A stretch of 30,903 nt of DNA, from positions 1-30,903 of IMG/VR virus record IMGVR_UViG_3300046713_000055; one strand, written 5' to 3'. Below are positions 9,919 to 30,903 of the stretch, piece after piece. Numbering within the stretch: position 1 is the first letter of the stretch; every line of letters starts with the position of its first letter. The notes beneath the pieces were generated by a model. It searched no databases. It saw nothing but the letters and a program-made list of their open reading frames with translations, and was not told the DNA's origin. Source of the DNA: a virus. The translations under genes and the position numbers were made by a program.

Positions 9919-12900
9919 TTCGGTGTCACTCCCGGTGGGTAGAGCCGGCCGCCGCCCTTGGTGTGCATCTTGACGTGCTCAGCGATGGCCTGGCCGAGCT
10001 TGCGGTCCGGGGTGGAAGCGGCGATAACCGGGTCCACCTTCACGATGATGGTGGTGTGGCCGCCGACCGGCTCGGGCCGGCCGGTCCGGTTGATCGCCAT
10101 CGTCGCGCCCGGCATCAGCCAGCCGCCCTTATCGAAGCTCTTGACCATGCCGCCCTTATTCATGAACGACAGGTAGGCACCGTTGGTGTAAGCGGACCAG
10201 GCCCGCAGGCCCTGGGCGCGGTAGATGGCGACCGCGTTCTCCGCGTTGATCATCGGGTTGAACAGGTTCCCGCCGATCCGCTGGCTGCCTGGCATGATTT
10301 GCCACAGTCCCGACGCACCGGACGCGTTGTGGGCGTTCGTCCGGCCACCCGATTCGGCCATGGCAATCGCGCCCATGAGGTGCGCGAGGCTGCTCGCGCC
10401 GCCCGCCTGACGCCATAGCGAAGACAGCTGGGTTTCCCGCAGCGACCGGCCGGCTCCCACCCCGCCGAACCCGCCCGGGGGAACGCCAGTGAACATCAGC
10501 GGCATCGCGTGCAGCCCCATCCACTGCGGTCCCATCCCGCCGCCCTGGCTGATGACCTTGCCGGGGGTGTTGGAGACCATGGCGACGTGGCCTGGGGGCG
10601 GGCCGCCGACCGAGCTGATGTAGAACGCCAGGCCACCCGGCTGGGGTGGCCCGCGCTTCACCCACTGGCCCTGCGACTCCGAGGTGCCGGGCGCGTTGAT
10701 CCCGAAATGCTTATAGATGGCCTGGACGAATCCACTACAGTCTGCGCCCGCCGGCCCCAGCGTCCTGGCCCCCCATACGTACGGGATGCGCCCCAGGAAC
10801 GACTTGGCGTAGGCGGCGATAGAGCCGCCCGACCCGGTCGCGGCGGCCTTGACGGCAGCCTTCAGCGCATTCCATGCCGCCTTGACGAACGCCGACGTAG
10901 CCGCCTTCTCGAACTTCATGTCCGCCTTATCCATAAACGGCACGACACGGCCCACGTTGTTTCCCGCCCTGACGAACCCGCCACTGGCGAAGCCGGGCAG
11001 GTGGCCACGCAGGTGATCCACCGCGCCGGCGTTGACCATCGGCTTCGGCACGACCACCTCGCCAGGGGTCAGCATGGCGGGGACGGTGTCCCGGCTGCCC
11101 CACCCGCGAATCTGGCCACCGCGTGCATGGAACTCCAGTGCCCCGGTGTCTGCCCGCTTCTCGCCGGGGATCGCCATCTTGTACTTGAGGAGTCCTTTGG
11201 CGAACGCCTCGGCGGTGATGGTGGTGTGATGGCTCTTGGGGATCTTGAAGATCTGGCCGGTCATCGTCTCGATCAGGCGCTGCGCCGTCTTCGCGTCCAT
11301 CCCCGCCTGACGGAAGTCCTTATACAGCACGGTCGCGTCGTGGTACCGCTTGCCCGCCGAGGAGTTGTTGACGATGTCGCCGGCCAGGGTGTTGATGTCC
11401 TTACCCGCATGGCTGGCGGCGATCTTCGCCTCAACGAACCTGTTGATCAGATCCTGCTTCAGGGTGCCGGCGAGGGCCGAGGCGTCTTTCGCCAGGTCCT
11501 GGATGTTGCCACCCATGCCAGCGACCAGCTTGTCCAGCCTCTTGCCGGCATCATGGGTGTCACCTAGCCCTTTAGTTAGATCCTTGAAGCTCTTGACACC
11601 CTTGATGCCCGCCTCCTGGCCGAGCAGCCTCAGCTCATCACGGCTCCAGTGGGCGTGCTTACCCAGCGGTATCAGCTGGGCGATCATGAGCTTCATCGCC
11701 TCCTTGACCTGCGGGAAACCGCCGGGGGACAGGGAGGACATCAGCCGCAGCGAGTCGATCAGTGATTGCGCCCCACTGAACGCGGTCTGCCAGGTCTGGC
11801 GCAGCTGAAGACTGGCCGCACTGAGGCCATCCATGCTGACGTGGACCGTCTTCGCCTTCCCCGTGACCGCATCAAAGGTCTTCGTCACAAGCCGCGAGGA
11901 GCCACCGACCTGATGGAAAGCCTCCTTGACGGAAAGGATGTCCTGCTCGAAGGTGATGAAGGCCGACTCACCGCCGGTCATGGTCCCGATGATCGTGTCC
12001 CACGCCGAGTTGAGGTTCTGCATGGACTTGAACTGGTCCGACATGGACAGGTTCAGCACGTTAATGTCCTGCTGGAGGACATTCCCCTGCTGGCCCATGG
12101 CCATGTAGCCGGCCCGGGTAGCCTCCACCTGCTGCAAAATCATCAGCCACTGATGGGTACCCGTTTTGAGCATGTCACCCATCGTGACGCCCGAGGCGAT
12201 CAGGAAACCCTGCGCCTCACCCACACCGCCGAGCCCGATCGCCAGCCGGTCCAGCCGGCTGTTGTAAAGGTTCGACTCATTGCTCAGCTGCCGCTGGCCG
12301 GCCGCCAGGTCGCTGCTTTTCTTTACCGCGTTTTCCATGGTGATGTTCATCATGCCGGCCCGGCCCGCGACCACCCTGGTGTCGTTGGCCACATTGGTCA
12401 TGGCGTGATGCACTTCTATCTGCGCCGCCGCCAGGTGACGCGACACTATGACCTGGTCTGCCTGCAATTGCATAAACCCGGTGACCGCGTTCTCCGCCAT
12501 CAGGGTCTTCTGAAGCGAGTCCAGCCAGCTCTGCGTCGCGTCCTTTGCGGTGATGAGCTTGACGGCCAGGAAGCCGACAACGATCGCGGCGGCTGCCGCC
12601 CAGCCCCACGGGAAGCCGGCCAGGCCCTTGAGCTTGCCCGCGAACTTGAACATGGCATCGCCGGCTTTGACGCCAGCGCCGCCCATCTTGGTCAGCGACT
12701 GGCCGCCTTTCAGGGCCAGCCCCGCAAGCCCGCCAATGCCAGCCGTGATCGCCTTGCCGGCGATCGTCGCACCCAGGCCCACATAGACGAGCGCCCCGTG
12801 ACCGATCAGCCCGAAGTTAGCGATCTTCTGCACAACAGCCGTGGAGGTCAGCTTCTCAATAAAACCAGTGGCGTTCTGGGTCGCGGTGAGCAGTATCTGG

Positions 12901-13868
12901 GCGATACCGGGCATGGCATGAAGCAGGTTGCCGATAATGCCGAACAGGTTCCCGAACACGTTGCCGAGCTGCTGCACGTCATCGACGGCGTTACGCATGA
13001 AAACCGAGAAGCCGCCGCTCTTGACGGCGACGGCGATCCGGGCGGCGAGGTTATCCAGGACGCGGGCAGTCCCCGTCGCCAGCTTGTTGAACTCGCCGGT
13101 CTTGGCGTTGACGATCGCCAGCATCTCACCGAACAGCTGGTACACATCCGGCCGGACCGCTTCGTGCATCTTCTCCAGGTTGCGGGTGAACGGCGGGATC
13201 GTCTTCCCCGTCGCGTCCATCGCCGTGTGCATGTTCTGCACCTGACGGAAAACATTCCTGAACGAGTCCGAGCCAGCCAGCGCGAACGCACCGAGCGCGA
13301 GAGTGGCCGGGATGACGATCGCCAGGACTTCAGCGAGCACGTCAACGATCAGGTGCAGCGCACCGATGCCCACAAAGAGTTTCGGTATCCAGCCGAAACT
13401 CTGCCCGCCAAACAGGGGGATCTTCGTCTTGTTGGTCAGCAGGCCCCACAGCCCGGTGAACCGGGCGGTCGTCACATTCGCATCTTGCATACCTTTCTCG
13501 GCTCGCTGCGCTGCCGCTTCCACACCCAGCAGCTGCGCCTGCGCCCTCGTCGCGCCGAGCAGCGTGATCTCCGGGGTGATCCGCTTATCGAGCCGGTTCA
13601 GCAGCAGCACGGTGCGGGTGAGCTGCGCCGCCACCCCCGGGTCGCTCACCTTCAGGCGCAGCTCATAGATCCGCTTGGTCAGCGTGTCCAGATAGGCACG
13701 CAGATCGGTCGCGGCCAGCTTCGCCGCATCGGTCTGCGCACCTATCTTGACCTTGCGGTCCATCCCCGCCATGGCGATATTCAGCTGCTTGTCAGCCTCG
13801 GGGCGGAATCCATCGGAGGTGGGCCTGATCCGCACGAAGGCGTTGGCCAGCGCGAAGGCGTCTGGCAT
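9915..13868 (-). CDS. Tail tape measure protein with NlpC/P60 and transglycosylase domains
   Basis: A 1317-residue protein starting at ATG 13868 with AGGAGGT upstream. The N-terminal 960 residues are mostly helical with Gln/Ala-rich coiled-coil stretches and hydrophobic segments at about 165-198, 357-387 and 420-440, the usual design of a tape measure, which sets tail length and may insert in the host membrane. The C-terminus carries two cell-wall domains. An NlpC/P60 domain has PYVWGA, ADCSGF (Cys1044) and GHVAMV (His1094). A transglycosylase-like domain has AMAESGG (Glu1172), NASGASGLWQI and NAENAV. These probably open peptidoglycan locally during genome entry. It follows the chaperone-like gene, as in other siphoviruses. 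Confidence 0.95.
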   Translation of the reverse strand: MPDAFALANAFVRIRPTSDGFRPEADKQLNIAMAGMDRKVKIGAQTDAAKLAATDLRAYLDTLTKRIYELRLKVSDPGVAAQLTRTVLLLNRLDKRITPEITLLGATRAQAQLLGVEAAAQRAEKGMQDANVTTARFTGLWGLLTNKTKIPLFGGQSFGWIPKLFVGIGALHLIVDVLAEVLAIVIPATLALGAFALAGSDSFRNVFRQVQNMHTAMDATGKTIPPFTRNLEKMHEAVRPDVYQLFGEMLAIVNAKTGEFNKLATGTARVLDNLAARIAVAVKSGGFSVFMRNAVDDVQQLGNVFGNLFGIIGNLLHAMPGIAQILLTATQNATGFIEKLTSTAVVQKIANFGLIGHGALVYVGLGATIAGKAITAGIGGLAGLALKGGQSLTKMGGAGVKAGDAMFKFAGKLKGLAGFPWGWAAAAAIVVGFLAVKLITAKDATQSWLDSLQKTLMAENAVTGFMQLQADQVIVSRHLAAAQIEVHHAMTNVANDTRVVAGRAGMMNITMENAVKKSSDLAAGQRQLSNESNLYNSRLDRLAIGLGGVGEAQGFLIASGVTMGDMLKTGTHQWLMILQQVEATRAGYMAMGQQGNVLQQDINVLNLSMSDQFKSMQNLNSAWDTIIGTMTGGESAFITFEQDILSVKEAFHQVGGSSRLVTKTFDAVTGKAKTVHVSMDGLSAASLQLRQTWQTAFSGAQSLIDSLRLMSSLSPGGFPQVKEAMKLMIAQLIPLGKHAHWSRDELRLLGQEAGIKGVKSFKDLTKGLGDTHDAGKRLDKLVAGMGGNIQDLAKDASALAGTLKQDLINRFVEAKIAASHAGKDINTLAGDIVNNSSAGKRYHDATVLYKDFRQAGMDAKTAQRLIETMTGQIFKIPKSHHTTITAEAFAKGLLKYKMAIPGEKRADTGALEFHARGGQIRGWGSRDTVPAMLTPGEVVVPKPMVNAGAVDHLRGHLPGFASGGFVRAGNNVGRVVPFMDKADMKFEKAATSAFVKAAWNALKAAVKAAATGSGGSIAAYAKSFLGRIPYVWGARTLGPAGADCSGFVQAIYKHFGINAPGTSESQGQWVKRGPPQPGGLAFYISSVGGPPPGHVAMVSNTPGKVISQGGGMGPQWMGLHAMPLMFTGVPPGGFGGVGAGRSLRETQLSSLWRQAGGASSLAHLMGAIAMAESGGRTNAHNASGASGLWQIMPGSQRIGGNLFNPMINAENAVAIYRAQGLRAWSAYTNGAYLSFMNKGGMVKSFDKGGWLMPGATMAINRTGRPEPVGGHTTIIVKVDPVIAASTPDRKLGQAIAEHVKMHTKGGGRLYPPGVTPK

Positions 13869-16461: not shown

Positions 16462-16881
16462 TCAGCCGAAGCCTTCCACGGGAGCATATTTGATGATCGC
16501 GGTCGAGGCCTTCCAGTTGGCCTTGATCGAGATCGCTTCGGAAATTCCACCCGAAATCTGAAAATCGGGCAAAATGTTCCCAAACCAGTACATGTTCGGG
16601 TCCGCGACAGTGTTCGGGTACAGATAGAACGACCTGGCGATACCGTCACGGGCGGCGGTGTAGATCTGCCGGCTCGCGTCATCGAAGAACCCGGTGAAGT
16701 CACCGGATGCGTCAGGCAGCCCGGACACGTAGATCTTGTTGGCGTCACCGAACGCCGTGACCTCGGGCTGGTCCACGGTGAAGTTGATGTTCCAGTTGGT
16801 CAGGAACGCGATCGGGCTGGCCGTTCCGCCCGAGGGGATCGCCATGTAGACGAAGCCGCTCTTTCCATGAAGCCTGGCCAC
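16462..16881 (-). CDS. Major tail tube protein
   Basis: A 139-residue protein starting at GTG 16881, preceded by AGGGGA. The sequence fits siphovirus tail tube proteins: an N-terminal GKSGFVYMAIPSGGTASPI, then LTNWNINFTVDQPEVTAFGD, SGDFTGFFDDASRQIYTAA and a C-terminal strand-rich part ending ISIKANWKASTAIIKYAP. Hundreds of copies would form the tail tube. It is of typical length for the small tube proteins of actinophages. It lies between the connector genes and the chaperone/tape-measure genes, as expected, though a GT, an HTH protein and a GH25-like protein are interposed on either side. Confidence 0.8.
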   Translation of the reverse strand: MARLHGKSGFVYMAIPSGGTASPIAFLTNWNINFTVDQPEVTAFGDANKIYVSGLPDASGDFTGFFDDASRQIYTAARDGIARSFYLYPNTVADPNMYWFGNILPDFQISGGISEAISIKANWKASTAIIKYAPVEGFG

Positions 16882-17249: not shown

Positions 17250-18320
17250 TCACAGCTCGTCCAGCGCACCAAGTAGCTTCTGGACATTGGCGGCGAAGGT
17301 ACGGGGGCGGATAGCTGCCCGCGCCTGGATAGCCGCGATCCCCCGCGCCGCGTCATGGTCCAGCCACCAGCGCAGCTGCTCGGCCGCGTCCTCCGGGCTG
17401 GCGTAGGTGGGCAGCATGGGGAACAGCTCGTCCGACTCGGGCCGGGACTCGCGCAGGAAAAACAGCCCGCACGCGGCCATCTCGATCTCGCGGGGACTGG
17501 CCGACCAGCCTTCGGTGGTGTCGTCGTCGTTTTCGCGCCGGAACATGTTGAGCCCCACCTTGGCGGACTTGTAGATCCGGGTGGTGAGCGCGTTATCCAC
17601 GCATTCTTTCCGCTCATGCGACAGCAGCTTCATCAGCGGGTCGGTTTCTTTCACCGTCGCCCAGTTGCCGCCGAACGTGGTGTCGAGCCCCTCGAACGCC
17701 CCGAGCGCCAGCATCTTGCCGAAGAACTCCTGCCGGGAGGCGAACATGGTGCCGATGAAGACGAAGTCGGTCATGAACTGGTCCTCGCCCGGACCTGGGT
17801 AGTGCAGCCCAGGCCGGTAAGCATGCGGCATGTAGAGGGCGGGAATGCCCTCCTCGTCATACATGCCGATCAGCAGTGGGTCGTTCAGCAGCACCAGGTC
17901 AGCGTGGCGGGCACGCTCCAGCTGCCGCTTCTCCTCATACGGCGACTCGGTGAACAGGAGCACCACCTTGATACCGCGTGAGCGGAGCACGTCCATGAAC
18001 TCAGTGGGGATGAAGAACGCCGAGACGATGATCACCACGTCGGGCCACCACTGGAAACAGGTGGCGTAGATCCCGTTCGCCGACACCCCGATAACCATCG
18101 CCTTGTCGTGGAATGCTTTCTTGAACTGGGGGTTGCCCTGATCGTCGTGCTTGCCGGTGTAGAGGTAGGCCGAGTCGTGGAATGCGATCCGGTCCTCAAG
18201 GTTGTAGTCCCGGCAGGCGATCCCAGCCTCGATGAAGGCTTCCTGCCAGCCGGCGAAAACATCGTGGACGGAAAACTGCGGCCCGGGGTGCACTATAAGC
18301 ACCCGCTTGGGGATCTTCAC
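17250..18320 (-). CDS. CgeB-like glycosyltransferase (GT-B fold)
   Basis: A 356-residue protein. GTG 18320 is chosen for its AGGAG site and a GTGA overlap with the preceding gene. The N-terminal half has a Rossmann-like start (PKRVLIVHPGPQFSVHDVF) and strands such as VVIIVSAFFI and KVVLLFTE. The C-terminal domain carries the donor-site signature of the glycosyltransferase family that includes spore protein CgeB: SPREIEMAACGLFFLRE (about residues 275-291) followed by LPTYASPEDAAEQLRWWL. Such enzymes transfer a sugar from a nucleotide donor. It sits inside the connector/tail-tube block, far from the other three glycosyltransferases, so a tail protein is a plausible acceptor. Acceptor and sugar are unknown. 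Confidence 0.8.
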   Translation of the reverse strand: MKIPKRVLIVHPGPQFSVHDVFAGWQEAFIEAGIACRDYNLEDRIAFHDSAYLYTGKHDDQGNPQFKKAFHDKAMVIGVSANGIYATCFQWWPDVVIIVSAFFIPTEFMDVLRSRGIKVVLLFTESPYEEKRQLERARHADLVLLNDPLLIGMYDEEGIPALYMPHAYRPGLHYPGPGEDQFMTDFVFIGTMFASRQEFFGKMLALGAFEGLDTTFGGNWATVKETDPLMKLLSHERKECVDNALTTRIYKSAKVGLNMFRRENDDDTTEGWSASPREIEMAACGLFFLRESRPESDELFPMLPTYASPEDAAEQLRWWLDHDAARGIAAIQARAAIRPRTFAANVQKLLGALDEL

Positions 18321-18550
18321 GATTCTCCTCTGGCTGCGTCCTTGCCGCTGGGTACCCCCATGACGGCGAAATCCCATTCTCTGGTCACGATCACGATAGG
18401 CAGGTCGGGCAGCTTGAGCGTAGCCCGCAGCCGGTCCACAATCATCCGGGCCTCTTCCTGGCTGACCTCATCCCGGTTCACGTAGGCGAGCAGCCGGTCA
18501 CCCGGCTTAACCTGCCACCGCTGGATCTCGGTGATCTCGGGCAGCGTCAT
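18317..18550 (-). CDS. Small conserved-looking tail-block protein
   Basis: A 77-residue protein. ATG 18550 gives an ATGA overlap with the terminator-protein gene and is preferred over 18604. The sequence is well ordered: an N-terminal strand and turn (IQRWQVKPGDRLLAYVNRDE), a helix (SQEEARMIVDRLRATLK) and a final strand (LPIVIVTREWDFAVMG). I have seen this compact arrangement in unnamed actinophage small proteins, but cannot name the family. Its position between the tail terminator and the GT suggests a tail or neck accessory role. Confidence 0.6.
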   Translation of the reverse strand: MTLPEITEIQRWQVKPGDRLLAYVNRDEVSQEEARMIVDRLRATLKLPDLPIVIVTREWDFAVMGVPSGKDAARGES

Positions 18551-18957
18551 GTGGCCAGCACTGTGACGAGCCCCTGGGCACCGAGGTACTGCTGGCCGGC
18601 CCATTCCATCAGGCCGTACCCCCTCATCGAGTCCAGGTTCACCGATTCTGCCGCACCGCCGAGCCGGGGGTTAGCCAGGATCACCGCCGCGATCGAAAAC
18701 TGGCCGGTGGTGGCCATGTAGGAGTTGAGCTGATTCACCGAGGAGGAGTCCTGGACGTACTGGGCGAGGATCACGATCCGCAGCAGGTAGCTGATCCCGC
18801 CGCCCATCGTGTCGAACCGCAGCGACTGGGACGGCTGTGGCATAACGATCGCCATCGGCGGGTTCACCTGGGACGTGAACCCGGAGCTGACCCGCAGGCC
18901 CGGGATCGTATCGAGCACGGTGGCGAGCGCGTTGCAGACGCTGGTCAGGTCAGCCAT
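18547..18957 (-). CDS. Tail terminator (neck) protein
   Basis: A 136-residue protein whose start (ATG 18957) shares one base with the connector stop (TGATG). It matches the pattern of siphovirus tail terminators: an N-terminal helix ending in IPGLRVSSGF, then NPPMAIVMPQPSQSL, SYLLRIVILAQYVQDSSSV, and a C-terminal AVILANPRLGGAAESVNLDS with a final strand. The protein forms the ring that caps the tail tube and joins it to the head connector. Order (connector, then terminator, then tube protein) agrees with this. Confidence 0.75.
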   Translation of the reverse strand: MADLTSVCNALATVLDTIPGLRVSSGFTSQVNPPMAIVMPQPSQSLRFDTMGGGISYLLRIVILAQYVQDSSSVNQLNSYMATTGQFSIAAVILANPRLGGAAESVNLDSMRGYGLMEWAGQQYLGAQGLVTVLAT

Positions 18958-19904
18958 CAGATCCCGACCTTGTGCATCGGGCTAGCGTAGTCGCAGAGCA
19001 GGCTCGCCACATAAGGGTTGCCGCCCCGGGGAAGCCGCACCATGCCGAACTCCGACGTGCCGGCCAGGCCGAACGGTGAGTCCTTCAGCTTGAACAGCTC
19101 GCTGGCGACCTGGAGGGTGGCCTGCTTCACCCGGTATGGCACCGTGGGCCAGCCCCACACGCCAATGATCTGGATGCGGTCGAGCCGGCTGAACGGCCAG
19201 GTGTAGGGGAAGAACTTCCCGCCGCCGGCCGCGTTGATCGCCCGGATCTGGGTGTAGGGACGGGCCTCGCCAGTGACGTTCTGGTTGAACTCCCACATCC
19301 CGAACGCCAGCTCGAAGTCGGTGCCCAGCACCCATGACTGCTCGAACACACCGTCGCCGTCCTGGTCGGTGGCCATCGACGTGACCGAAACGAGATCATC
19401 GACGGGCAGGCTCCAGATGTCATACGGCATGTAGGTGCGGGTCTCGGCCACCTGGTAGAAGAACCGGCCGCAGTAGCTCTCAACCGACCTCGCCGCCGCC
19501 TGCACGGCCAGCTCCAGCTCGAAGTCGCTGACCGTGTCGGTGATGTTCAGCCGGGACTTCAGCTCCTCCACGCTGGTGTAGAACTGGTGGATCGTGCCTG
19601 CCGGGTTGACCGTCCAGGTGCCTGCGTCCAGCTCTGACGCGGTGCCGGTGCCGGTCCACTGGAATGACCACATGCCGACGATCGTGGAGCCGATGAGCAG
19701 CTGGTAGACGCCAGTGGACAGCTTGGTGATGTCGGCAGGCGAGGGGCCTGCGCCAACCGTGTGCGTGGTGGCCGCGCCAGTCGGGTCGGTGATGACACAC
19801 GTGACGGCGGTGGGATCAGCGTTGACGTTATTGACCTGGAAGGTCATCCCCAGGGTGGCGATGTCGTTGCCAGCCTGGTTCTGGAAGAACACGGTCGCGC
19901 CCAT
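18957..19904 (-). CDS. Head-tail connector protein with extra N-terminal beta domain
   Basis: A 315-residue protein starting at ATG 19904, with GAGGGTGG upstream. Residues 108-315 match HK97 gp6-like connectors: LKSRLNITDTVSDFELELAV, AARSVESYCGRFFY, then DDLVSVTSMATDQDGDG, RIQIIGVWGWPTVPYRVKQA and a final LFKLKDSPFG with a C-terminal tail. Residues 1-100 are an additional beta-sandwich-like domain (VTCVITDPTGAATTH, YQLLIGSTIVGMWSFQW) that simple connectors of about 110-200 residues lack. It could project from the neck. The connector ring joins the portal to the tail. No portal or capsid gene is found upstream of it in this window. Confidence 0.8.
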   Translation of the reverse strand: MGATVFFQNQAGNDIATLGMTFQVNNVNADPTAVTCVITDPTGAATTHTVGAGPSPADITKLSTGVYQLLIGSTIVGMWSFQWTGTGTASELDAGTWTVNPAGTIHQFYTSVEELKSRLNITDTVSDFELELAVQAAARSVESYCGRFFYQVAETRTYMPYDIWSLPVDDLVSVTSMATDQDGDGVFEQSWVLGTDFELAFGMWEFNQNVTGEARPYTQIRAINAAGGGKFFPYTWPFSRLDRIQIIGVWGWPTVPYRVKQATLQVASELFKLKDSPFGLAGTSEFGMVRLPRGGNPYVASLLCDYASPMHKVGI

Positions 19905-20241: not shown

Positions 20242-22485
20242 TTATCCTACCGAGCCGCCAGGCCCATCCCTGGGGTCGGCGACGGTAGCGATGCCGCTGC
20301 GCGGATCGGTGGCCGACGTGATGCCAGTGGCAGCCTCAGCCACCGAGGGGATGCCGCTGCGCGGGTCCGCTACTGACGTGATGCCGCTGCGCGGGTCGCT
20401 GACAGTTGCGGTTCCCGTAGCAACAGAGATCAGTGGTGGCGGGGTAGCGAACGCCGGCAGGAGCGTGGAGTCCGAGCGCCCGGACCGGTATGGGCCTGGC
20501 AGGCGGGCACGCACCGGTCCCTGGAGCGGCCTGACCTTGGGGCCAGTCTGGGCGTAGGGGCCGCGCTGCGAGCCCGTCCGTCCCCGGGTGGGTGGCGGTG
20601 GCTGCTGACGGCCGACACCGGCAGGCGCATGCCAGACCCTGGCGGGTGGCCCCGCTTGAGCGAAGGTGCCGGCCCGGCGAACGACCCGGCCACCAGTCAG
20701 CGGCTGGCGCTTCGCCTGAACCGGATGGCCCAGCGGGTAGATGGGCGGACCTTGGCCAGTGGCGACGAACGTGAAGGTGCCAGCCCTGCCCTGCGCCCGG
20801 CCACGCGGCGGAAGTGGCTGACGGGCCTGGACAGGTCCATCCCACTGCCTGACCGCTGGCCCCTGCTGATCGAAGGTGCCGTCGCGGCTGGCGTTCTGGC
20901 CACCCCGGATGGGCAGACGCTTCGCCTGGACCGGATGACCCAGGGGATAGACAGGTGGCCCCTGGCCGGTAGCGACAAATGTGAACGTCCCGGACCGGTT
21001 GCTGGTACGGCCACGGGCTGGCAGCGGCTGGCGGGCCTGGACCGGCCCGTCCCACTGCCGTACCGGCGGCCCGGCCTGATCAAAGACGCCGTCGCGGGTG
21101 GTGACCGAGCCGCCACGGGTAGGCCAGCGCTTCGCCTGAACCGGATGGCCCAGCGGGTAGACCGGCGGCCCGGCCCCGGTGACGACGGTGACGAAGGTGC
21201 CAGCCCTGGTAACGATCCGGCCACGGACGGGCTGCGGCAGCTGCTGACGGCCCACCCCCACAGGCGCATGCCACTGCCGGACCGGCGGGCCAGTCTGAGC
21301 GAAGACGCCGTCGCGGCTGGCGACCCTGCCACCACGGACCGGGGCGGGGATAGGTGCGCGGACCGGGCTGTCCCACTGCCTGACCGGTGGACCGCTCTGG
21401 CCGTAGAAGCCGGTGCGTGTGGCGACGTGACCGCCGCGCCCAAGCGGTGGCCGGGCCTGAACCGGCCCAGTCCATATGCGGACCGGTGGCCCAGCCTGAC
21501 CGTAGACACCACGCTGGCCAGTGACCCGGCCACGCGGTGGCGGCACCCGGGGCTGGACGGACGCAACCGGGCCGTCCCACATCCGTACCGGAGGCCCAGC
21601 CTGGGCGAAGACACCCCTGCGGTTGCTAGTACGCCCGCCTTGCAGTGGCGGGTACTGCTTCGCCTGGATGGGGTGACCGAGCGGGTAAACCGGCGGCCCA
21701 GATACGGCAGCGGTGATGACAGAAACCGGCGGCTGCTGCTGCTGGTGGTGGAACCTGCGCAGCCACGTCTTACCGGGCCGTGCCGTCCCGGGGCCAGGCG
21801 GCGAAGCCACCGGACCGAGATAGTCGGCGTCGGACGCGCCAGCGTCGTCTATCCAGTACGGCCCGGCGTTCGCGATCGACGTGCCCGTGATGCCGAACGC
21901 TGCCCGGGTGATCGCGGCGTTCGTGTTCAGGTTCGCCGCAGAGGTCTGCGTCTCATCGGCCGTGGCGCTGTCCAGCGCGGTGGTGAACAGCTTGAACTCG
22001 ATCTGCCCCACGGCGGCGTCGCCGGTGATGAACCCTTCGATCCGGAACCACTGATTAAGCGGGATCGAGGCGGTGGACGTCAGGACCGCTGTCCCGGCGG
22101 CGTTCTGCGCGACGACTTTCCCGGCCGTGCTGATGTTGATGCTGCCGCAGACAGCGGCGGCCAGCGCGGCGAAAACACGGTGCTGAGCGGCGGGGTTAGC
22201 CGTGAAATACAGGTATTCGCGGAACCACACCGTGGGGATTGTGGAACCGGTGAGCGACGTCGTCCACGAGCAGCTCGAACCACCGGCGGTGCCACCGGTC
22301 GCGACCTTAACACCCAGGTTGCCGTGCGCGGCGTGGGTGGAGTCGGAGGCGAGCGTCCCGCCGGCGACGATCGTGATGGTGTCGAAGAAGCTGCCGGATA
22401 CGCCGCCGGTGTTGCCACCCGCCCCAGCGGTCAGCGTGGTGCCGCTGGGGGTGATGCCCTCGAAATTGTTGACCAGGGTCGTCAT
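20242..22485 (-). CDS. Repeat-rich virion-like protein with lectin-like N-terminus
   Basis: A 747-residue protein. Residues 1-225 look like a concanavalin-type beta-sandwich (HGNLGVKVATGG, WFREYLYFTA, NQWFRIEGFITG, GPYWIDDAG), a fold used for sugar binding. After a Gln-rich hinge, residues 263-673 hold twelve repeats averaging 34 residues, each with GPPV, an aromatic or PLGHP segment, a PVxAR segment and an RGGR-type turn. Two subtypes alternate (GPPVYPLGHPVQAK and GPPVRQWDGPVQAR), making a higher-order unit near 70 residues. The last 75 residues contain five short SVADPRSGI-type units. It is extremely rich in Pro, Gly and Arg and so probably extended. Position next to the connector suggests a virion surface fibre or decoration. 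Function unknown. Confidence 0.65.
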   Translation of the reverse strand: MTTLVNNFEGITPSGTTLTAGAGGNTGGVSGSFFDTITIVAGGTLASDSTHAAHGNLGVKVATGGTAGGSSCSWTTSLTGSTIPTVWFREYLYFTANPAAQHRVFAALAAAVCGSINISTAGKVVAQNAAGTAVLTSTASIPLNQWFRIEGFITGDAAVGQIEFKLFTTALDSATADETQTSAANLNTNAAITRAAFGITGTSIANAGPYWIDDAGASDADYLGPVASPPGPGTARPGKTWLRRFHHQQQQPPVSVITAAVSGPPVYPLGHPIQAKQYPPLQGGRTSNRRGVFAQAGPPVRMWDGPVASVQPRVPPPRGRVTGQRGVYGQAGPPVRIWTGPVQARPPLGRGGHVATRTGFYGQSGPPVRQWDSPVRAPIPAPVRGGRVASRDGVFAQTGPPVRQWHAPVGVGRQQLPQPVRGRIVTRAGTFVTVVTGAGPPVYPLGHPVQAKRWPTRGGSVTTRDGVFDQAGPPVRQWDGPVQARQPLPARGRTSNRSGTFTFVATGQGPPVYPLGHPVQAKRLPIRGGQNASRDGTFDQQGPAVRQWDGPVQARQPLPPRGRAQGRAGTFTFVATGQGPPIYPLGHPVQAKRQPLTGGRVVRRAGTFAQAGPPARVWHAPAGVGRQQPPPPTRGRTGSQRGPYAQTGPKVRPLQGPVRARLPGPYRSGRSDSTLLPAFATPPPLISVATGTATVSDPRSGITSVADPRSGIPSVAEAATGITSATDPRSGIATVADPRDGPGGSVG
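20260..20406 (-). repeat. Short repeats encoding DPRSGI units
   Basis: Five imperfect 30-nt units at the 3' end of the repeat-protein gene. On the plus strand the block GATGCCGCTGCGCGG recurs three times. They encode SVxDPRSGI-type segments at the C-terminus. Confidence 0.75.
20467..21699 (-). repeat. Twelve imperfect repeats of about 100 bp, higher-order unit about 210 bp
   Basis: The DNA encodes residues 263-673 of the repeat protein. Units diverge at the base level but keep the codon phase, and lengths vary by whole codons. Copies 6/7, 8/9 and 10 are the most alike, suggesting recent duplication of a two-unit block. Confidence 0.8.
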
Positions 22486-25013: not shown

Positions 25014-25289
25014 TCACTTCGGCTTGTTGAGGCTGCCCGGAGGCCGGCCTGGGCCACGCCGGATTGGCTCCTCCACAGGCGGCTCGGGCTCGGCCCGCAC
25101 CTCCACGGTGGGGTCAGGCGGCGGCGCGGCGATTTCCACCTTGCGCTCCTCCACCACCGGCACCGCGATTCCGCCGGCACACAGATCCCGGCCTTCGGCG
25201 TCGGGCACCTCGAACTCGACACCAAAGTCTGGCCAGTCCCGGCCGTCGTAGCGGGGGCCGCTCATCTGCTGGATCAGCTTCACCTTCAC
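25014..25289 (-). CDS. Small protein with C-terminal AT-hook-like motif
   Basis: A 91-residue protein. GTG 25289 has a perfect AGGAGG site and a GTGA overlap with the glycosyltransferase stop. Residues 1-45 are a small beta-rich unit (KVKLIQQMSGPRYDGRDWPD, then VEFEVPDAEGRDLCAGG). A Pro/Glu-rich acidic linker follows, then a basic tail with RRGPGRPPGSLNK (78-89), close to the GRP core of AT-hooks that bind the DNA minor groove. In actinophages such short proteins often lie beside head genes. Here it separates the sugar-modifying block from the virion proteins. Its role is unknown. Confidence 0.65.
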   Translation of the reverse strand: MKVKLIQQMSGPRYDGRDWPDFGVEFEVPDAEGRDLCAGGIAVPVVEERKVEIAAPPPDPTVEVRAEPEPPVEEPIRRGPGRPPGSLNKPK

Positions 25290-26317
25290 TGCAATACCTC
25301 CTGGTAGGCGGCGGCCCACTTATCCCAGTTGCCCTCGATCGTATGCTGGGCAGCCAGCTCGCGGGCTTTGGCCCCCATGCTCTCACGCAGGTCAGCATCA
25401 GCCACCAGCTCACGGATACGGTCCCGCCATTCGCTTTTGCTGCGCACCAGGAACCCGGTGACGCCGTCCACCACGAACCCCGGGTAGGGGCCGAAGTCGG
25501 AGGCGACGACGGGGATGCCCATCGCCGCGTATTCGAGCGCCTTCAGGTGGCTCTTCGACTCGTTGAACCGGGTGGCCGCGAGCGGCGCGAGCCCGATGTC
25601 GAAATCCAGGTTCTCGCCCATGCTCAGGCAATACTCAGCCGGGTCATCCACCCATCGGGTGTGGTAGGCGTGGTTGTGGCCGAAGGTGGGCCGGTAGTCC
25701 ACGCCCACGATGTGCAGCCGCAGGCTGGGATCACGGTCGAGCACCTTGCGCACCGTCGTGGCAACCATCGAGACGTCCATGGCGTGACTCGACCCGCCGG
25801 CGTAGCCGATCGTCACATGATCGCGGCGTTTGCGTTCGAGGGTCAGCACCGAGGCGGGCAGATAGTTCCCGATCACCTTCACGTTGGGATGATTGGTATG
25901 TTCACGGACCGCCTCAGCCAGCGGCTCGGTGGTCACGGTCACCAGGTCGGAGGCGGTGATTGAGCTTTCAACCGCGTCGATGACCGAGTAACGGGTGAAC
26001 ACGCTGTAGGCGCTGAAGTTCGTCACATCGACGTTCCATATGTTGTCGTCTATCTCGTAGGCGAGGCGGTGATTCTGCCGCAGCCGTCGCCAGGCCCCGA
26101 GCACCTGAGGACGGTCCAGCCGCTCGCCCACGATCAGCCGGTAGTTCGCCACCTCAGCGGGTGGGGTGAATGCCTGGGCGTGCACCTTCCACCCGTGCGC
26201 ACCGAGCTGCTCCAGCGGCAGCTTGATGCGGAAGTAGCCGCAGCCGGTCGGCATCGGGTTGCCCTCGGCCTGGGCGTCATGTATACCCCACACCGACAGG
26301 GGCTCAGCGGTAAGCAC
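25286..26317 (-). CDS. GT4-like glycosyltransferase (GT-B fold)
   Basis: A 343-residue protein starting at GTG 26317 with a 14-nt overlap to the GT2 gene. It has an N-terminal sugar-acceptor domain (GCGYFRIKLPLEQLGAHGWK), an inter-domain strand (VTIGYAGGSSHAMD, about 168-181) and the GT4 donor-site signature NESKSHLKALEYAAMGIPVV (252-271), followed by GVTGFLVRSKSEWRDRI. Such enzymes are retaining transferases using nucleotide-sugar donors. The block around it includes an epimerase and methyltransferases, so it may add the sugar that they make or methylate. Acceptor unknown; virion protein or host glycan are the two main options. Confidence 0.85.
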   Translation of the reverse strand: MLTAEPLSVWGIHDAQAEGNPMPTGCGYFRIKLPLEQLGAHGWKVHAQAFTPPAEVANYRLIVGERLDRPQVLGAWRRLRQNHRLAYEIDDNIWNVDVTNFSAYSVFTRYSVIDAVESSITASDLVTVTTEPLAEAVREHTNHPNVKVIGNYLPASVLTLERKRRDHVTIGYAGGSSHAMDVSMVATTVRKVLDRDPSLRLHIVGVDYRPTFGHNHAYHTRWVDDPAEYCLSMGENLDFDIGLAPLAATRFNESKSHLKALEYAAMGIPVVASDFGPYPGFVVDGVTGFLVRSKSEWRDRIRELVADADLRESMGAKARELAAQHTIEGNWDKWAAAYQEVLQ

Positions 26318-26924
26318 TGGGCCACACGTCCACTGTCACCCACGGAATGAACTCGGCCTTGACGCCCCGTTCCATCCACCGGTTCACCAGCCTCCAGTCT
26401 TCCATCGAGTCGGGCGGTCCCCAGGTGGAGATTTCCAGCAGCTCCCGGCGGTGCATGATCATGGGCGTGCCGATAGAGCACGGGCCGAGGTCGCCCGAGC
26501 CGATGATAGCCATGGCCTCTTTCTCGATGACGCCGCCGTGGCTGGCCATCTGGGTGTAGGCGAACCCTGCCTCGGGATGGCGTTCCAGTGCCCGCACCAG
26601 CTGGGCGCAATGGTCCGGCCGGTAGGAATCGTCGTCATCGAGGTAGGCGATCAGGTTAGCCGTGGCCAGTTCCAGGCCACGGAGCCGGGCGCGCGTCCCC
26701 CACCGGGGGTCCGGGTTGGGGGACATCTGCTCGAAGATCAGCGAATAGTTTTCCGGCATCTCCATCTGGGCGATCAGTCCGGCCAGCTCCGGGTCGGGAC
26801 CATCGGAGACGATCACATGCTCGATGTTGCGGTACTCCTGCGCCTTCACCGAGGCGATGCAGCGATCGAACAGCCACTCGTGCCGCTGCCAGGTCGGGCT
26901 GATGACCGAGACCAGCGGGTCCAT
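26304..26924 (-). CDS. GT2-family glycosyltransferase (GT-A fold)
   Basis: A 206-residue protein starting at ATG 26924 with GGGAGAA upstream. Typical GT2 motifs: VSVISPTWQRHEWLFDRCIA at the N-terminus (nucleotide-binding start), VIVSDGPDPE, and the acidic metal site LIAYLDDDDSYRPDH (Asp96-Asp99). The C-terminal region has STWGPPDSMEDWRLVNRWME, with the ED pair expected near the catalytic base. Length is close to the minimal catalytic domain, and no membrane segment is present, so it is a soluble inverting-type transferase. Its 5' part overlaps the epimerase gene by 79 nt in another frame, an unusually long overlap for this operon. Confidence 0.85.
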   Translation of the reverse strand: MDPLVSVISPTWQRHEWLFDRCIASVKAQEYRNIEHVIVSDGPDPELAGLIAQMEMPENYSLIFEQMSPNPDPRWGTRARLRGLELATANLIAYLDDDDSYRPDHCAQLVRALERHPEAGFAYTQMASHGGVIEKEAMAIIGSGDLGPCSIGTPMIMHRRELLEISTWGPPDSMEDWRLVNRWMERGVKAEFIPWVTVDVWPSAYR

Positions 26925-27793
26925 AATTCTCCCAGGGCGCGGCGTATGCCCTCATCGAGGGTGACACGCGGCTGGTAAAACTTCCGCATCCGGCCCGGGT
27001 CAGCGACGCGGTAACCGACCCCAGCCGGCGCACCTGTCTTCAGTTTAAATCCCGGCGTGTAGCCGGCCGCCTTAGTGAACCGCTGTGCAAGTTCCTTCAT
27101 CGTCACCGGCTCACCCCAGCCGATGTTAACGGGCTCCTCGATGTCTGCTTCCGCCACGGCCAGGGTGGCGCTCACCACGTCATCGACGTGGACGAAGTCG
27201 CGGGCCTGCTGCCCGTCGCCCCAGATGGTGAACGGGTCTTCATGGCGGCGGGCACGGTCAGTGAACGCACCGAACGGGTAGTCGGTGTCCTGGTCTTCGC
27301 CATAGCCCGAGAACGGGCGCACCACCGTCACCGGGAGCCCTTCGCGCCGGGCGAGCCGGGCCAGCCGCTCGCCCGTCAGCTTCACCCAGCCATACAGCTC
27401 ATCCGGCAAGGCGGGGGCATCCAGGTCGATCATGTCCTCGCTGAGCCGTATCCGGCCGCTGCGCTGGATACGCTCCGGATAGGCGGCGGAGGAGGAGAAG
27501 TAGATCACCCGGCCGGGACGGGTGCGCAGCGCCCACTGGAACAGGGCCGCGTCAAGTTCGAGGTTGACCGCCTGGTCGAGTGGCGTGTGCTCGATCACCT
27601 GCCGGCCACCAACGACGGCAGCGCAATGCACCACCAGGTCATAATGGCCGGTATCACGCCGGAACAGGTCGCGGGCATCACGGGGCTTGGTGGCAGCGAT
27701 GTCACAGCCGTCCACCTCCCAGCCGTCAGCTTCCAGTCTGGTCCTGAAATGCCAGCCGATGAAACCACAGTGGCCGGTGATCAGCGCCTTCAT
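26846..27793 (-). CDS. NAD-dependent sugar epimerase/dehydratase (extended SDR)
   Basis: A 315-residue protein starting at ATG 27793 (ATGA overlap). The N-terminus has ITGHCGFIGWHF, the GxxGxxG dinucleotide-binding loop (residues 7-13). The active site follows the SDR order: a Ser in VIYFSSSAAYPE and the YxxxK pair in LYGWVKLTGER (Tyr134, Lys138). RARRHEDPFTIWGDGQQARD, DFVHVDDVV and NIGWGEPVTMKELAQ fit sugar-nucleotide epimerases or dehydratases. It probably converts a nucleotide sugar for the neighbouring transferases. The C-terminal 24 residues after LGELW are Ser/Arg-rich, unlike the family, and are encoded where the GT2 gene overlaps in another frame, suggesting the stop was lost and the reading extended. 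Confidence 0.85.
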   Translation of the reverse strand: MKALITGHCGFIGWHFRTRLEADGWEVDGCDIAATKPRDARDLFRRDTGHYDLVVHCAAVVGGRQVIEHTPLDQAVNLELDAALFQWALRTRPGRVIYFSSSAAYPERIQRSGRIRLSEDMIDLDAPALPDELYGWVKLTGERLARLARREGLPVTVVRPFSGYGEDQDTDYPFGAFTDRARRHEDPFTIWGDGQQARDFVHVDDVVSATLAVAEADIEEPVNIGWGEPVTMKELAQRFTKAAGYTPGFKLKTGAPAGVGYRVADPGRMRKFYQPRVTLDEGIRRALGELWTRWSRSSARPGSGTSGCSIAASPR

Positions 27794-28539
27794 GGTTTGA
27801 CCGCCACGAACATGCCATGGTCGGGGTAGGCACCGCCTGACCCCTGGACCGTCTGGGTACCTAGTGGCCCGCGCCAGTCAGGCACTTCGGACACCTCCGT
27901 GAACCCAGCCTCGTGGAGGCTGAGCAGCAGGTCGTCTTTGCATAGCCAGAACGATTTAGTGTTGCCGTAGCTTTCCCACCGGCCAGCCGCTTCGTGATAC
28001 CAGTGCCCGGTGCGCCCCTCGTGCTGCGACTGGACGGGATCACACCAGCTAGCGGAGGGCAGGTGGGCGTCTTCCGGGTGGCCGTTCTCCATCGAGTAGT
28101 GCGTGTGCAGGATCAGCATGCGGCGGGTGACCTTGCCCAGCAGGTTCAGGAACGCGACCGGGGCGTCGAGGTGATAGAGCAGGCCAGAGCAGAACACGGC
28201 GTCGAACTCCGTACCCAGCAGTAGCGTACGGACATCACCCTGAAAAAAGCCCAGATTCTCAAGCCCGAGCGCATCCTTCAGCCATACCGCATTGTCGTAG
28301 TTTTCCTGCCGGGCCTCGATGCCGTATGCGTCATACCCGGCGCGGGCGAACTCGGCGGTATACCCGCCTTCCAGGCAGCCCAGGTCCGCCACACTGATAC
28401 CAGAACGCGGGCCGGGGCCGAACTCCAGTTCCAGGGCACGCAATGTCATCTGGCATATGCCGGACACTGCTACCAGCGGCTGGCCCAGGAGAGTCTGCGT
28501 CCCATCTGGCAGCAGAACATTGTGTGAGCTGAAGTTCAC
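27790..28539 (-). CDS. Class I SAM-dependent methyltransferase
   Basis: A 249-residue protein. GTG 28539 gives a GTGA overlap with the previous gene and is preferred over GTG 28551. Motif I is SVADLGCLEGGYTAEFARAG (about residues 49-68), the acidic end of strand 2 is YGIEAR, and the next strand has FDAVFCSGLLYHLDAP. These features match the methyltransferases often found in sugar-modification clusters. The C-terminal half has a Trp/His-rich segment (SYGNTKSFWLCKDDLLLSLH) likely to shape the acceptor site. Position 5' of the epimerase and next to two more methyltransferases supports sugar O- or N-methylation, though no substrate can be read from sequence. Confidence 0.8.
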   Translation of the reverse strand: MNFSSHNVLLPDGTQTLLGQPLVAVSGICQMTLRALELEFGPGPRSGISVADLGCLEGGYTAEFARAGYDAYGIEARQENYDNAVWLKDALGLENLGFFQGDVRTLLLGTEFDAVFCSGLLYHLDAPVAFLNLLGKVTRRMLILHTHYSMENGHPEDAHLPSASWCDPVQSQHEGRTGHWYHEAAGRWESYGNTKSFWLCKDDLLLSLHEAGFTEVSEVPDWRGPLGTQTVQGSGGAYPDHGMFVAVKP

Positions 28540-29072
28540 CGGCACCCCCACAGCTGGAAGTGGGCGAGCGGGTGCAGCACGTCCCGCTGAATTTCCGGCA
28601 CCCAGCCGGCAGCTTCCAGCATTTCCCGCACCCCGTCATGATCCCAGCCCCAGTAATGCTGCGGGTTAATGTCGGTGAACTCCGCGAGCGGGGTGGAGAA
28701 CACCAGCGAGTCGGCTTTCTCCCGGATCTTCACCATCATCGCGTCGGGATCGTCCAGATGCTCGGCCGTCTCCGAGCAGATGAACATGCCGACGTGCCCG
28801 ATCATGTCAATGGTGTCCTCGATCATCCCGGTGATCTCATAGCCGGACGCGAAATCGCCGAGGATCAGCCGGTCCGGGGCGAGCGCCCGCCCGATCGCCG
28901 CGTCACCACACGCCAGGTCGGCGACCACGGAGGGGACGCCCATGTCCCGGGCCAGCTGGATCGTGTCGTCCACCCTGACGATGTGGTCAGGCCAGTGCGT
29001 GTGGTCGTGAGGACGGGGGCAGAACGCCATCAGCTGATCGCGGCTCCACGCTGGCCGTAGCCGCACCCTCAC
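28536..29072 (-). CDS. Small SAM-dependent methyltransferase-like protein
   Basis: A 178-residue protein starting at GTG 29072 with a GTGA overlap. Motif I is VVADLACGDAAIGRALA (about 49-65), with LILGDFASG as the next strand and IDMIGHVGMFICSETAEHLD for the acceptor-side strand. It is shorter than the other two methyltransferases and lacks the C-terminal extension. It ends in HFQLWGCR. The sequence fits a methyltransferase of the same fold acting in the same pathway; a non-catalytic partner is possible. It lies between two methyltransferase genes, all overlapping by 4 nt. Confidence 0.75.
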   Translation of the reverse strand: MRVRLRPAWSRDQLMAFCPRPHDHTHWPDHIVRVDDTIQLARDMGVPSVVADLACGDAAIGRALAPDRLILGDFASGYEITGMIEDTIDMIGHVGMFICSETAEHLDDPDAMMVKIREKADSLVFSTPLAEFTDINPQHYWGWDHDGVREMLEAAGWVPEIQRDVLHPLAHFQLWGCR

Positions 29073-29695
29073 TGTGGTGCCCGGTCCGCGTGGATGGCCT
29101 GGAACCGCTGCTGGCGCGTCACGCCACCGTGCCAGTTGACCCCGCCGTCACATTCGCGGTGCTCCAGCACCCGCCAGCCGCAGCGTTCCACTAGGTCGGC
29201 GTAGCCGGGCATATCCCACGCCCATGCGTGATGCTCATAGTGCCATTCACCGGTTTCCGCTGACGGGGACGACAGGATCAGTGCTTTGCAGTCAGGCAGG
29301 CCCCGCAGGAACTTCTCGGGCTCCGCCAGATGCTCCACGACTTCAGAGGCGATGAGCAGGTCACCGTACTCCAGCCCGCTGAAAATATCCGCCCGGCGCA
29401 CGTCAAGCCCCAGTTCGGCGGCACGCTTCAGGTTGCCCTCACCCAGGTCGTAGCCCCACGCCTCCACTGGCAGGCCGCGCAGGAGGTGCAGGAGGCTGCC
29501 GTCGCCGCAGCCGAGGTCAGTCAGCGACTTGATGTCAGCCTGTTGCGTGAGCACGAAGCTGACCATCTCGCCGACCATTGCCTGCCGCTGCGCGTGGCCA
29601 GCCTGGTTTGCCGGCGGCACCCAGGGGTGGGCCGCGAAGAATTCCGGGGAGGAGAAGTATGGGGCCGGCCCCTCGAACAGCTTCCACTCACTCAC
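29069..29695 (-). CDS. Class I SAM-dependent methyltransferase
   Basis: A 208-residue protein starting at GTG 29695 with an 8-nt overlap to the glycosyltransferase gene. Motif I is SLTDLGCGDGSLLHLLRG (about 57-74), then EAWGYDLGEGNLKRAAELGL and DLLIASEVVEHLAEPEKFLR, the classic sequence of small-molecule methyltransferases. The C-terminus has YEHHAWAWDMPGYADLVERC, with a His/Trp-rich acceptor loop. It is the first methyltransferase after the leading glycosyltransferase. Sugar methylation is the likely role from context. Confidence 0.85.
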   Translation of the reverse strand: MSEWKLFEGPAPYFSSPEFFAAHPWVPPANQAGHAQRQAMVGEMVSFVLTQQADIKSLTDLGCGDGSLLHLLRGLPVEAWGYDLGEGNLKRAAELGLDVRRADIFSGLEYGDLLIASEVVEHLAEPEKFLRGLPDCKALILSSPSAETGEWHYEHHAWAWDMPGYADLVERCGWRVLEHRECDGGVNWHGGVTRQQRFQAIHADRAPQ

Positions 29696-30374
29696 CGCGC
29701 CACGCTGCTTCCCGCAGCCGGGCTAGGTCGCCGGGCCACTGGGTGGTCATGAATCGCTGGTAGGTGGCGGAGTCGGTGTTGAACTGCTGCACCGAGTTCA
29801 CCCGCACATATCCCTCGTCCCAGCTGGCCTTGCCCGCCACTGGGTGCATGTGCTCAATGATCACATCCTCCAGGTAGGTGAGGGAATCCAGTTCGCGCCC
29901 GAGGGTCAGCCAGAAATCATCGAAATACAGGTGCATCAGCCCGGGCGGCACGAAATATCCCAGCGCCTGCACAATCCCCGCCGACATCGCCACGGCGGTC
30001 GGCAGGTTGCGCCCCTGGAACAGGTCGTTGCCGTAGGCGACGCCGGGCAGCGCATCCACCAGGGCCTTGTCCCAGCCGGGCGTGCGTGGCCGGTGATCGT
30101 CGCCCAGGAACCCGACCGCTCCGCCGTGCTGGGCGATGGCCGGCATGACCGAGTTGAGGATCGGCCCGAGTCGGCGGGGCTCCTCGATCACCTGTATCCC
30201 GGCATCGAGATGCTGGGATAGGTAGCCGTCCAGTTCCGGGTCGTCGTCATCGACCAGGACCAGCAGCCGCGCCTTCGCGTCGGTCTGCTCCCAGCAGATG
30301 GCCAGTTCCGCAATATTTCCGGGCCGGCCACGGGACGGGCAGACCATGGTCAGTTCGGCGGCTTCCACCGGCAC
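29688..30374 (-). CDS. Glycosyltransferase-like protein (GT-A fold), first gene of the minus-strand operon
   Basis: A 228-residue protein starting at GTG 30374 (a GTG at 30368 is also possible); no strong ribosome site is visible. The start MVCPSRGRPGNIAEL resembles the nucleotide-binding loop of GT2-type enzymes. VLVDDDDPELDGYLSQH and VGFLGDDHRPRTPGWDKALV (with GDDH, 91-94) supply acidic residues of the kind used for metal and donor binding. The middle part (GNDLFQGRNLPTAVAMSAGI) and FDDFWLTLGRELD fit a compact GT-A domain. The assignment to a named family is less sure than for the next two transferases. It is preceded by a divergent promoter region shared with the plus-strand genes. Confidence 0.7.
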   Translation of the reverse strand: MPVEAAELTMVCPSRGRPGNIAELAICWEQTDAKARLLVLVDDDDPELDGYLSQHLDAGIQVIEEPRRLGPILNSVMPAIAQHGGAVGFLGDDHRPRTPGWDKALVDALPGVAYGNDLFQGRNLPTAVAMSAGIVQALGYFVPPGLMHLYFDDFWLTLGRELDSLTYLEDVIIEHMHPVAGKASWDEGYVRVNSVQQFNTDSATYQRFMTTQWPGDLARLREAAWRGE

Positions 30375-30551: not shown

Positions 30552-30903
30552 ATGAAGCTGTGCGTGGGGGCCGCGTCCCGGCGCGTGGTCGAGGAGGCGG
30601 CGAAGCTGCGGGTGGCGCAGATCGTCGCGTCCCGCCGGCAGGTTGGTGAATTCGAGCCCGGTTACACCGGCTACAACAGCGCCACCCTCGTGCAGGCAGT
30701 GAAGATCTTCAGCGGCGGGGAGACCGAGGTGGTGCGGGACCACGGTGGCCCGTACCAGAACGGTGACCCTGACGACAACTGGCTCACCGCCCTCGATGCC
30801 GACGTTGACGCAGGGTTCGATGTGCTGCATCTCGACGTCAGCAAGCTGGCGCAGGACATGCAGCCCATCGAACTGACCCGGCTGTGCCAGCGCTACGGCG
30901 GCA
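30552..30903 (+). CDS. GatZ/KbaZ-like aldolase-family protein (3' end outside window)
   Basis: An open frame from ATG 30552 to the window edge, about 117 residues visible; GTG 30540 in frame is an alternative start with GAGGAA upstream. The sequence follows the N-terminal half of the class II tagatose-bisphosphate aldolase GatZ/KbaZ family: ASRRQVGEFEPGYTGYNSAT corresponds to the family's QV...GYTG segment, EVVRDHGGPYQNG to the DHxGP segment, and VDAGFDVLHLDVSK to the AGFxxxHLDxS strand of the TIM barrel. Members take part in cleavage of ketose bisphosphates, usually as a partner of a catalytic subunit. In a phage next to a sugar-modifying block, a role in making a sugar precursor is plausible, but only the family is supported. 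Confidence 0.7.
   Translation, partial: MKLCVGAASRRVVEEAAKLRVAQIVASRRQVGEFEPGYTGYNSATLVQAVKIFSGGETEVVRDHGGPYQNGDPDDNWLTALDADVDAGFDVLHLDVSKLAQDMQPIELTRLCQRYGG

Follow-up and report, generated by a model that had tools for sequence, protein, structure and literature searches.

The window, that is, the whole 30,903-base stretch analyzed here (G000), is an entire viral record of IMG/VR (IMGVR_UViG_3300046713_000055), which has a G+C content of 65% and contains no tRNA genes. Most of its genes lie on the minus strand, with tail and connector genes, unassigned structural-like genes, and then a block of seven genes for glycosyl and methyl transfer at positions 25286–30374. The phage, which appears to be a soil actinobacteriophage, carries between its head and tail genes a locus of about 10–12 sugar enzymes that, judging from their families, could synthesize, activate and methylate an unusual sugar and transfer it, most probably to the phage's own particle. 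Related loci occur in the genomes of Streptomyces, Nonomuraea and Sphaerisporangium, which suggests an actinobacterial host. Among 50,697 phage records, no close DNA relative of the distal 10.7 kb of the window was found.

All seven open reading frames (ORFs) were recovered on the minus strand at the coordinates proposed in an earlier note on this DNA, with neighboring genes sharing 14, 79, 4, 16, 4 and 8 nucleotides (nt), and the enzyme classes assigned there were confirmed through Pfam, NCBIfam, PHROGs and paralogy. GTB_1 (25286–26317, 343 amino acids, aa) is a GT-B glycosyltransferase of the GT4-like group 1 (PF13692, 2e-11; phrog_7162, 1e-53), and GTA_2 (26304–26924, 206 aa) is a GT-A glycosyltransferase of the GT2 family (PF00535, 7e-16). 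They are followed by EPI_3 (26846–27793, 315 aa), a nucleotide-sugar epimerase/reductase of the short-chain dehydrogenase/reductase (SDR) type (PF01370, 6e-35), and by three methyltransferases that use S-adenosylmethionine (SAM): the class I enzyme MT_4 (27790–28551, 253 aa; PF13649, 1.5e-8; TIGR04290, 1e-11), the methyltransferase-like MT_5 (28536–29072, 178 aa), and the class I enzyme MT_6 (29069–29695, 208 aa; PF13489, 1e-7). MT_5 has no Pfam or PHROG match and is assigned as a paralogue of MT_6, to which it is 29% identical over 73 aa (E 5e-6); it also contains the class I SAM motif. The last gene, GTA_7 (29688–30374), which is the core gene of the module, encodes a GT-A-like phage glycosyltransferase (phrog_14945, 9e-46) without a Pfam match, in which the motifs P-x-RGRP, GDD and H-x-HP are conserved across 12 diverse phages. 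When its profile was compared with the PDB, the sole match was a weak one to a polyphosphate kinase, which was judged to be due to chance.

The nearest solved relatives of EPI_3 are GDP-L-fucose synthase and GDP-mannose 3,5-epimerase (PDB 7ll6, 3e-22). It retains the SSSxxY and YxxxK motifs of SDR enzymes, and because the cysteine of GDP-fucose synthase is missing at the aligned position, fucose synthase activity is improbable. The 79-nt overlap (26846–26924), in which the final 26 codons of EPI_3 run over the start of the GT2 gene in a different frame, arises because EPI_3 carries a C-terminal extension that is largely missing in the homologues of other phages, most of which end at about 288–301 aa.

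The block ORFs are real genes, since their ratios of nonsynonymous to synonymous differences (pN/pS) against sister phages lie between 0.12 and 0.43 and their order is kept in three phage lineages. Together with the cassette genes described below, the range is 0.12–0.44, and the major capsid protein has a value of 0.20. The slowest-evolving gene of the block is MT_5 (0.12), with GTA_2 at 0.23 and GTB_1 at 0.29 against the sister contig L007; the value of GTB_1 against L010 was discarded because the upstream frame of L010 appears to be broken, which upsets the codon register. Chance ORFs, host contamination and tail-fibre sugar hydrolases were considered and dismissed. None of the block proteins has membrane segments, and scans of the block for promoters and terminators gave signals no higher than in shuffled sequences.

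The locus does not end at position 30374, where the earlier note had closed it; the seven genes are about half of it, and the contig ends inside the locus. Also absent from that note are a sugar-nucleotide cassette, a GT-B gene at 17250–18377, and a methyltransferase at 634–1248. The cassette begins with TIM_8 (30552–30902, plus strand), a putative GatZ/KbaZ-like ketose epimerase with a class II aldolase fold, which is divergent from the seven-gene block and of which the contig end leaves only the N-terminal 117 residues; its full length is 291 aa (L004:10001–10876). Past the contig end, near-identical contigs (L002–L005) and sister lineages (L007, L010) encode TIM_8, a cupin, a nucleotidyltransferase-kinase named NTK_9, and GT_10, a protein of 254 aa that has no family match and is read as a GT-A enzyme from its QDD motif. 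After GT_10, the same contigs have small Ser/Thr/Gly/Pro-rich proteins, the major capsid protein, a 161-aa gene, the protease, and the portal. The 161-aa family (L004:16298–16783) is also found in L047 (18448–19779), where it is fused to a methyltransferase-like domain (PF13578) in a gene of 443 aa that is encoded on the opposite strand.

The link to the virion operon drawn in the earlier note holds, in that the locus lies between head genes and head-tail connector genes; its placement in the tail operon proper does not. This position between capsid and head-tail adaptor is shared by five lineages: those of G001, G004, G312 and G313, and that of the window. G312 (91 kb) and G313 (about 109 kb) carry the entire set in collinear order between the capsid and adaptor genes, and within it a short gene for a HAD-type phosphatase, weakly matched by PF00702; a HAD_2 search across the relatives gave no match. 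G004 (74 kb) has a smaller set, made up of GTA_7, MT_5, MT_6, EPI_3 and a glycosyltransferase, between structural genes and adaptor. The additional gene at 17250–18377 (minus strand) encodes a CgeB-like GT-B glycosyltransferase in the head-tail connector region (PF13524, 4e-13). Homologues 45–89% identical to it occupy the corresponding position in G001, G004 and G313, and its homologue in G312 lies elsewhere in the genome on the opposite strand; neither it nor GT_10 had a match in the 50,697 phage records. The gene at 634–1248 (minus strand), at the left contig end near lysis-type genes, is a possible further SAM methyltransferase, matched by PF13649 at 4e-5, below the family cut-off.

TIM_8 resembles GatZ and KbaZ along its whole length and is 29% identical to a comparison protein that itself matches PF08013 at 4e-15. 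The full-length protein has no match to PF08013 and the truncated part matches it with an E-value of 0.054; TIM_8 is therefore called GatZ-like and not filed as a member of the family. An AlphaFold model built with 58 viral homologues (pLDDT 93.5, pTM 0.91) predicts the TIM barrel of a class II aldolase; a first model, from 3 sequences, was poor (pLDDT 50). The best matches of the model by TM-score are the fructuronate-tagaturonate epimerase UxaE and tagatose 4-epimerase (0.66–0.68), followed by class II aldolases, and a sequence search of the PDB with a four-row TIM profile gave no match. In Escherichia coli, GatZ and KbaZ turn fructose-6-phosphate into tagatose-6-phosphate; GatZ is a demonstrated fructose-6-phosphate 4-epimerase, and the predicted site of these proteins consists of Asp87, His88, Glu171 and His257 (PMC11907403). 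Asp63, His64, Glu126 and His187 of TIM_8 align with these four residues and are invariant in 58/58 sequences, so that TIM_8 shares with the D-tagatose-6-phosphate 4-epimerases of PF08013 the fold, the Asp/His/Glu/His metal site, and the motifs RDHGGP, GxE and KxHN, whereas it is much shorter (about 290 against about 420 aa). GatZ-like, HAD and methyltransferase genes are also present in OR848179 and similar unverified "Listeria phage" records, where they look bacterial and may be contamination.

The cupin (122 aa) is of the mannose-6-phosphate-isomerase type (PF01050, 4e-8), and its Q-x-H...E metal signature is present in 39 of the first 40 cassettes examined. NTK_9 is a 495-aa fusion of a nucleotidyltransferase (NTP_transf_3, PF12804, 6e-12) and an APH-type kinase (PF01636, 8e-8), in which the motifs G-x-G-x-R, CDT and HGD...N...IDWR are invariant across homologues as distant as a marine one with 28% identity. 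Cupin, NTK and TIM genes lie together within 6 kb in 68 of the 79 viral loci found with NTK, compared with 0/27 control loci, and truncation near the cassette affects several of the 11 exceptions. The evolutionary distances of the three proteins co-vary (r 0.82–0.95, a level reached by none of 2,000 permutations). Their order is TIM-cupin-NTK in ten actinophage-type loci and cupin-NTK-TIM in 54 others. A search of 297 Actinomycetota genomes for the fusion, run without positive control, yielded nothing at E <= 1e-15, and plasmid records gave no full-length match. The cassette recurs widely in further viral contigs, most of them apparently aquatic (L046:9646–12474; L093–L151), and in the marine virus AG-345-E15 it is embedded in a large sugar cluster that also contains HAD, GHMP-kinase-like and epimerase genes. 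No description of a TIM-cupin-NTK cassette in phages was found in the open-access literature searched.

A search for the block in related actinophages, as proposed in the earlier note, found it in many phages and prophages; the contrary outcome named there, a block absent from all phages or lying in host loci, was not seen. EPI_3 comes after GTA_7, frequently separated from it by one or two methyltransferases, in 14 of the 16 untruncated loci of distant viruses. The same core is present at 7 of 8 matches in bacterial genomes and recurs in actinobacterial prophages. Where examined, these bacterial loci adjoin tail-fibre-like genes and, in Nonomuraea, also HNH and terminase-like genes. The GTA_7 homologue of phiAsp2, an isolated phage of Actinoplanes, makes up the N-terminus of a longer protein (596 aa) whose annotation is that of a putative O-methyltransferase. 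The fusion of transferase and methyltransferase in this phage and their adjacency in others strongly suggest that both act on one product. The O-methylated sugar raised in the earlier note gains support from this fusion and from the nearly constant presence of methyltransferases and/or an epimerase beside GTA_7. The phiAsp2 protein is of the kind of phrog_2675, named "DNA methyltransferase", a name that is probably wrong given that this member looks like a glycosyltransferase-O-methyltransferase fusion. Among phages, GTA_7 matches only those of Streptomyces, Arthrobacter, Actinoplanes and, weakly, Pelagibacter; homologues were not found in mycobacteriophages.

Glycosylation of virion proteins is reported for the mycobacteriophages Che8, Corndog and Myrna (Freeman et al., 2023, as cited in PMC12363180), and the Corndog genes for an O-methyltransferase and for transferases are located between those of portal and protease and have been proposed to modify the capsid (PMC4351075). 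As far as these sources describe them, Corndog gp35–gp38 and Che8 gp110 resemble the window locus in having transferases and an O-methyltransferase in the virion structural region, and modification of capsid and tail proteins has been proposed or shown for them (PMC4351075; PMC12363180). They differ from it in size, with at most four genes, and have no sugar-nucleotide synthesis genes as described. The window locus has glycosyltransferase genes inside the virion structural operon, as seen in five lineages, and methyltransferases linked to the transferases (three genes, and the phiAsp2 fusion), but for the several transferases compared (GTA_7, GT_10 and the GT-B at 17250) no homology to mycobacteriophages was detected. 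In phiAsp2, pas33–pas35 encode a glycosyltransferase, the fusion, and another glycosyltransferase after the tail genes; unlike in the window locus, no epimerase, cupin, kinase or GatZ-like gene is annotated within the 18.6-kb region examined. Streptomyces phage KimJongPhill encodes a UDP-glucose dehydrogenase, a methyltransferase, and a GTB_1-like transferase (gp4–gp6) just upstream of the terminase; these are three genes only, with homology limited to GTB_1 (gp6, 31%). AG-345-E15 and similar viral cassettes have adjacent cupin, kinase/nucleotidyltransferase and GatZ-like genes as in the actinophages, but in the order cupin-NTK-TIM and, in AG-345-E15, as part of the larger sugar cluster. The locus would work like phage virion-glycosylation loci, and what is new is a predicted full sugar-nucleotide pathway within the virion operon.

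What is shown here is the gene content, the families, purifying selection, the conserved position and cassettes, and the predicted fold of TIM_8. The best reading is a phage-owned pathway whose probable product is an uncommon O-methylated sugar that would be transferred to proteins of the virion. TIM_8, judged by its family, would epimerize a ketose phosphate of the fructose-6-phosphate type at C4, and the cupin would convert the epimer to an aldose phosphate. A phosphatase, encoded by the HAD gene in some relatives and otherwise presumably supplied by the host, would release the free sugar, from which NTK_9, given its domains and motifs, may form the sugar-1-phosphate and then the nucleoside diphosphate (NDP)-sugar. 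EPI_3 would alter the configuration or oxidation state of the NDP-sugar, after which GTA_7, GTA_2, GTB_1 and GT_10 would attach it and the three methyltransferases would O-methylate it. Virion proteins from the same late operon are favored as the acceptor because the locus occupies a late-operon position in five lineages, lacks membrane proteins, and has the mycobacteriophage precedents; as a guess, the small Ser/Thr/Gly/Pro-rich proteins beside the capsid gene are possible acceptors. Several points weigh against this pathway. The acceptor, the sugar and all of the activities are inferences; TIM_8 has Asn at the position of GatZ Lys279 and no full-length Pfam match; the nucleotidyltransferase domain of NTK is nearest to cytidylyltransferases, including those for phosphocholine and inositol phosphate, which would allow for a non-sugar as the activated group; and in Stanwilliamsviridae phages of Streptomyces the GTA_7 homologue lies away from the virion operon, in the company of a further transferase and a nucleotidyltransferase and in one case surrounded by replication genes, which means that the family is not tied to virions.

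The enzymes could instead remodel a host surface glycan, in receptor masking or seroconversion. Sets of cytosolic glycosyltransferases, epimerases and methyltransferases are typical of cell-wall glycan synthesis, temperate relatives are found as prophages, and the cassette of AG-345-E15 lies in a cluster resembling those for capsule or lipopolysaccharide; yet no gtr-type flippase, polymerase or membrane transferase accompanies the membrane-segment-free block, and the locus sits inside the late head-tail operon in five lineages and not beside lysogeny genes, all of which makes a host target unlikely. A hypermodification of the phage DNA with a methylated sugar, which would shield it from restriction, is less probable again. 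Phage DNA glycosyltransferases exist, and the GTA_7 homologue of the Stanwilliamsviridae phage MeganTheeKilla lies among replication genes. Such a role gains some weight from relatives that carry a C5-cytosine methyltransferase (G003, 1611–2099; G312; G314; G315) or a gene of the thymidylate-synthase family (G314, G315), but it loses weight because these base-forming genes were not found in G004 (74 kb), G313 or G001 (55 kb), records that are possibly fragments, and the block adjoins capsid genes. A search for TET/JBP proteins gave no match, and neither did its control.

It is somewhat more doubtful still that the kinase/nucleotidyltransferase activates a non-sugar group, such as a polyol or a phosphocholine-like headgroup linked to cytidine diphosphate, which the transferases then attach. 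The closest solved relatives of its nucleotidyltransferase domain, the inositol-1-phosphate and phosphocholine cytidylyltransferases, and the APH type of its kinase partner would fit this, but a glucose-1-phosphate cytidylyltransferase is also matched, and in 68 of the 79 loci the gene is linked to those for an enzyme resembling ketose epimerases and for a cupin of the mannose-isomerase type, and in actinophages also to that of a nucleotide-sugar epimerase, which argues for a sugar. Metagenomic contigs can contain recently captured, non-functional host genes without a phage role. Such an origin of the block is very improbable, being contradicted by purifying selection (pN/pS 0.12–0.44), by the order and position kept in several lineages, and by the want of full-length fusion matches in the Actinomycetota genomes searched, with the reservation about its control stated above.

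Among the remaining genes of the window, the four virion markers and the small gene next to the block are on the minus strand. Downstream of the block are the head-tail adaptor (18957–19904; phrog_442, 3e-23), the tail terminator (18547–18957; phrog_17840, 1e-19), the major tail protein (16462–16881; phrog_10528, 2e-10), and a tape measure protein with a lytic domain (9915–13868; phrog_329, phrog_6090). A small gene (25014–25319; phrog_2616, 0.002) overlaps the end of GTB_1, continues the operon, and is kept in the sister phages. At 20242–22485, a 747-aa structural-like protein contains imperfect repeats (210-bp unit, GPPVYPLGHPVQAK motif) and has no family match; the sister phage G001 has a different long protein at this place and, among its tail genes, a phosphoesterase (PF04185) with an Ig-like domain (L049:5791–7287). 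At 1331–3082, an NlpC/P60 gene lies beside a LysM and SLT transglycosylase gene, which are probably lysis or tail-associated wall hydrolases.

Known phage virion glycosylation involves few transferases and presumably host sugars. If the proposed pathway to a methylated sugar on virion proteins is correct, this phage would invest in a particular, probably rare, methylated glycan of its particle, with consequences for stability, host recognition and immune recognition. More tentatively, and with the odds somewhat against it, phages may own a pathway for a sugar nucleotide not known from their hosts, consisting of a short GatZ-type C4 epimerase, a cupin isomerase, a fused anomeric kinase/nucleotidyltransferase and an optional phosphatase, to which soil actinophages would add an epimerase, transferases and methyltransferases in the head-tail operon for a capsid coat, and which other, apparently mostly aquatic phages would use in other sugar clusters. 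The three enzymes of the TIM-cupin-NTK trio are a concrete target for establishing their product in vitro, and the trio would annotate a viral gene family present in more than 100 IMG/VR loci.

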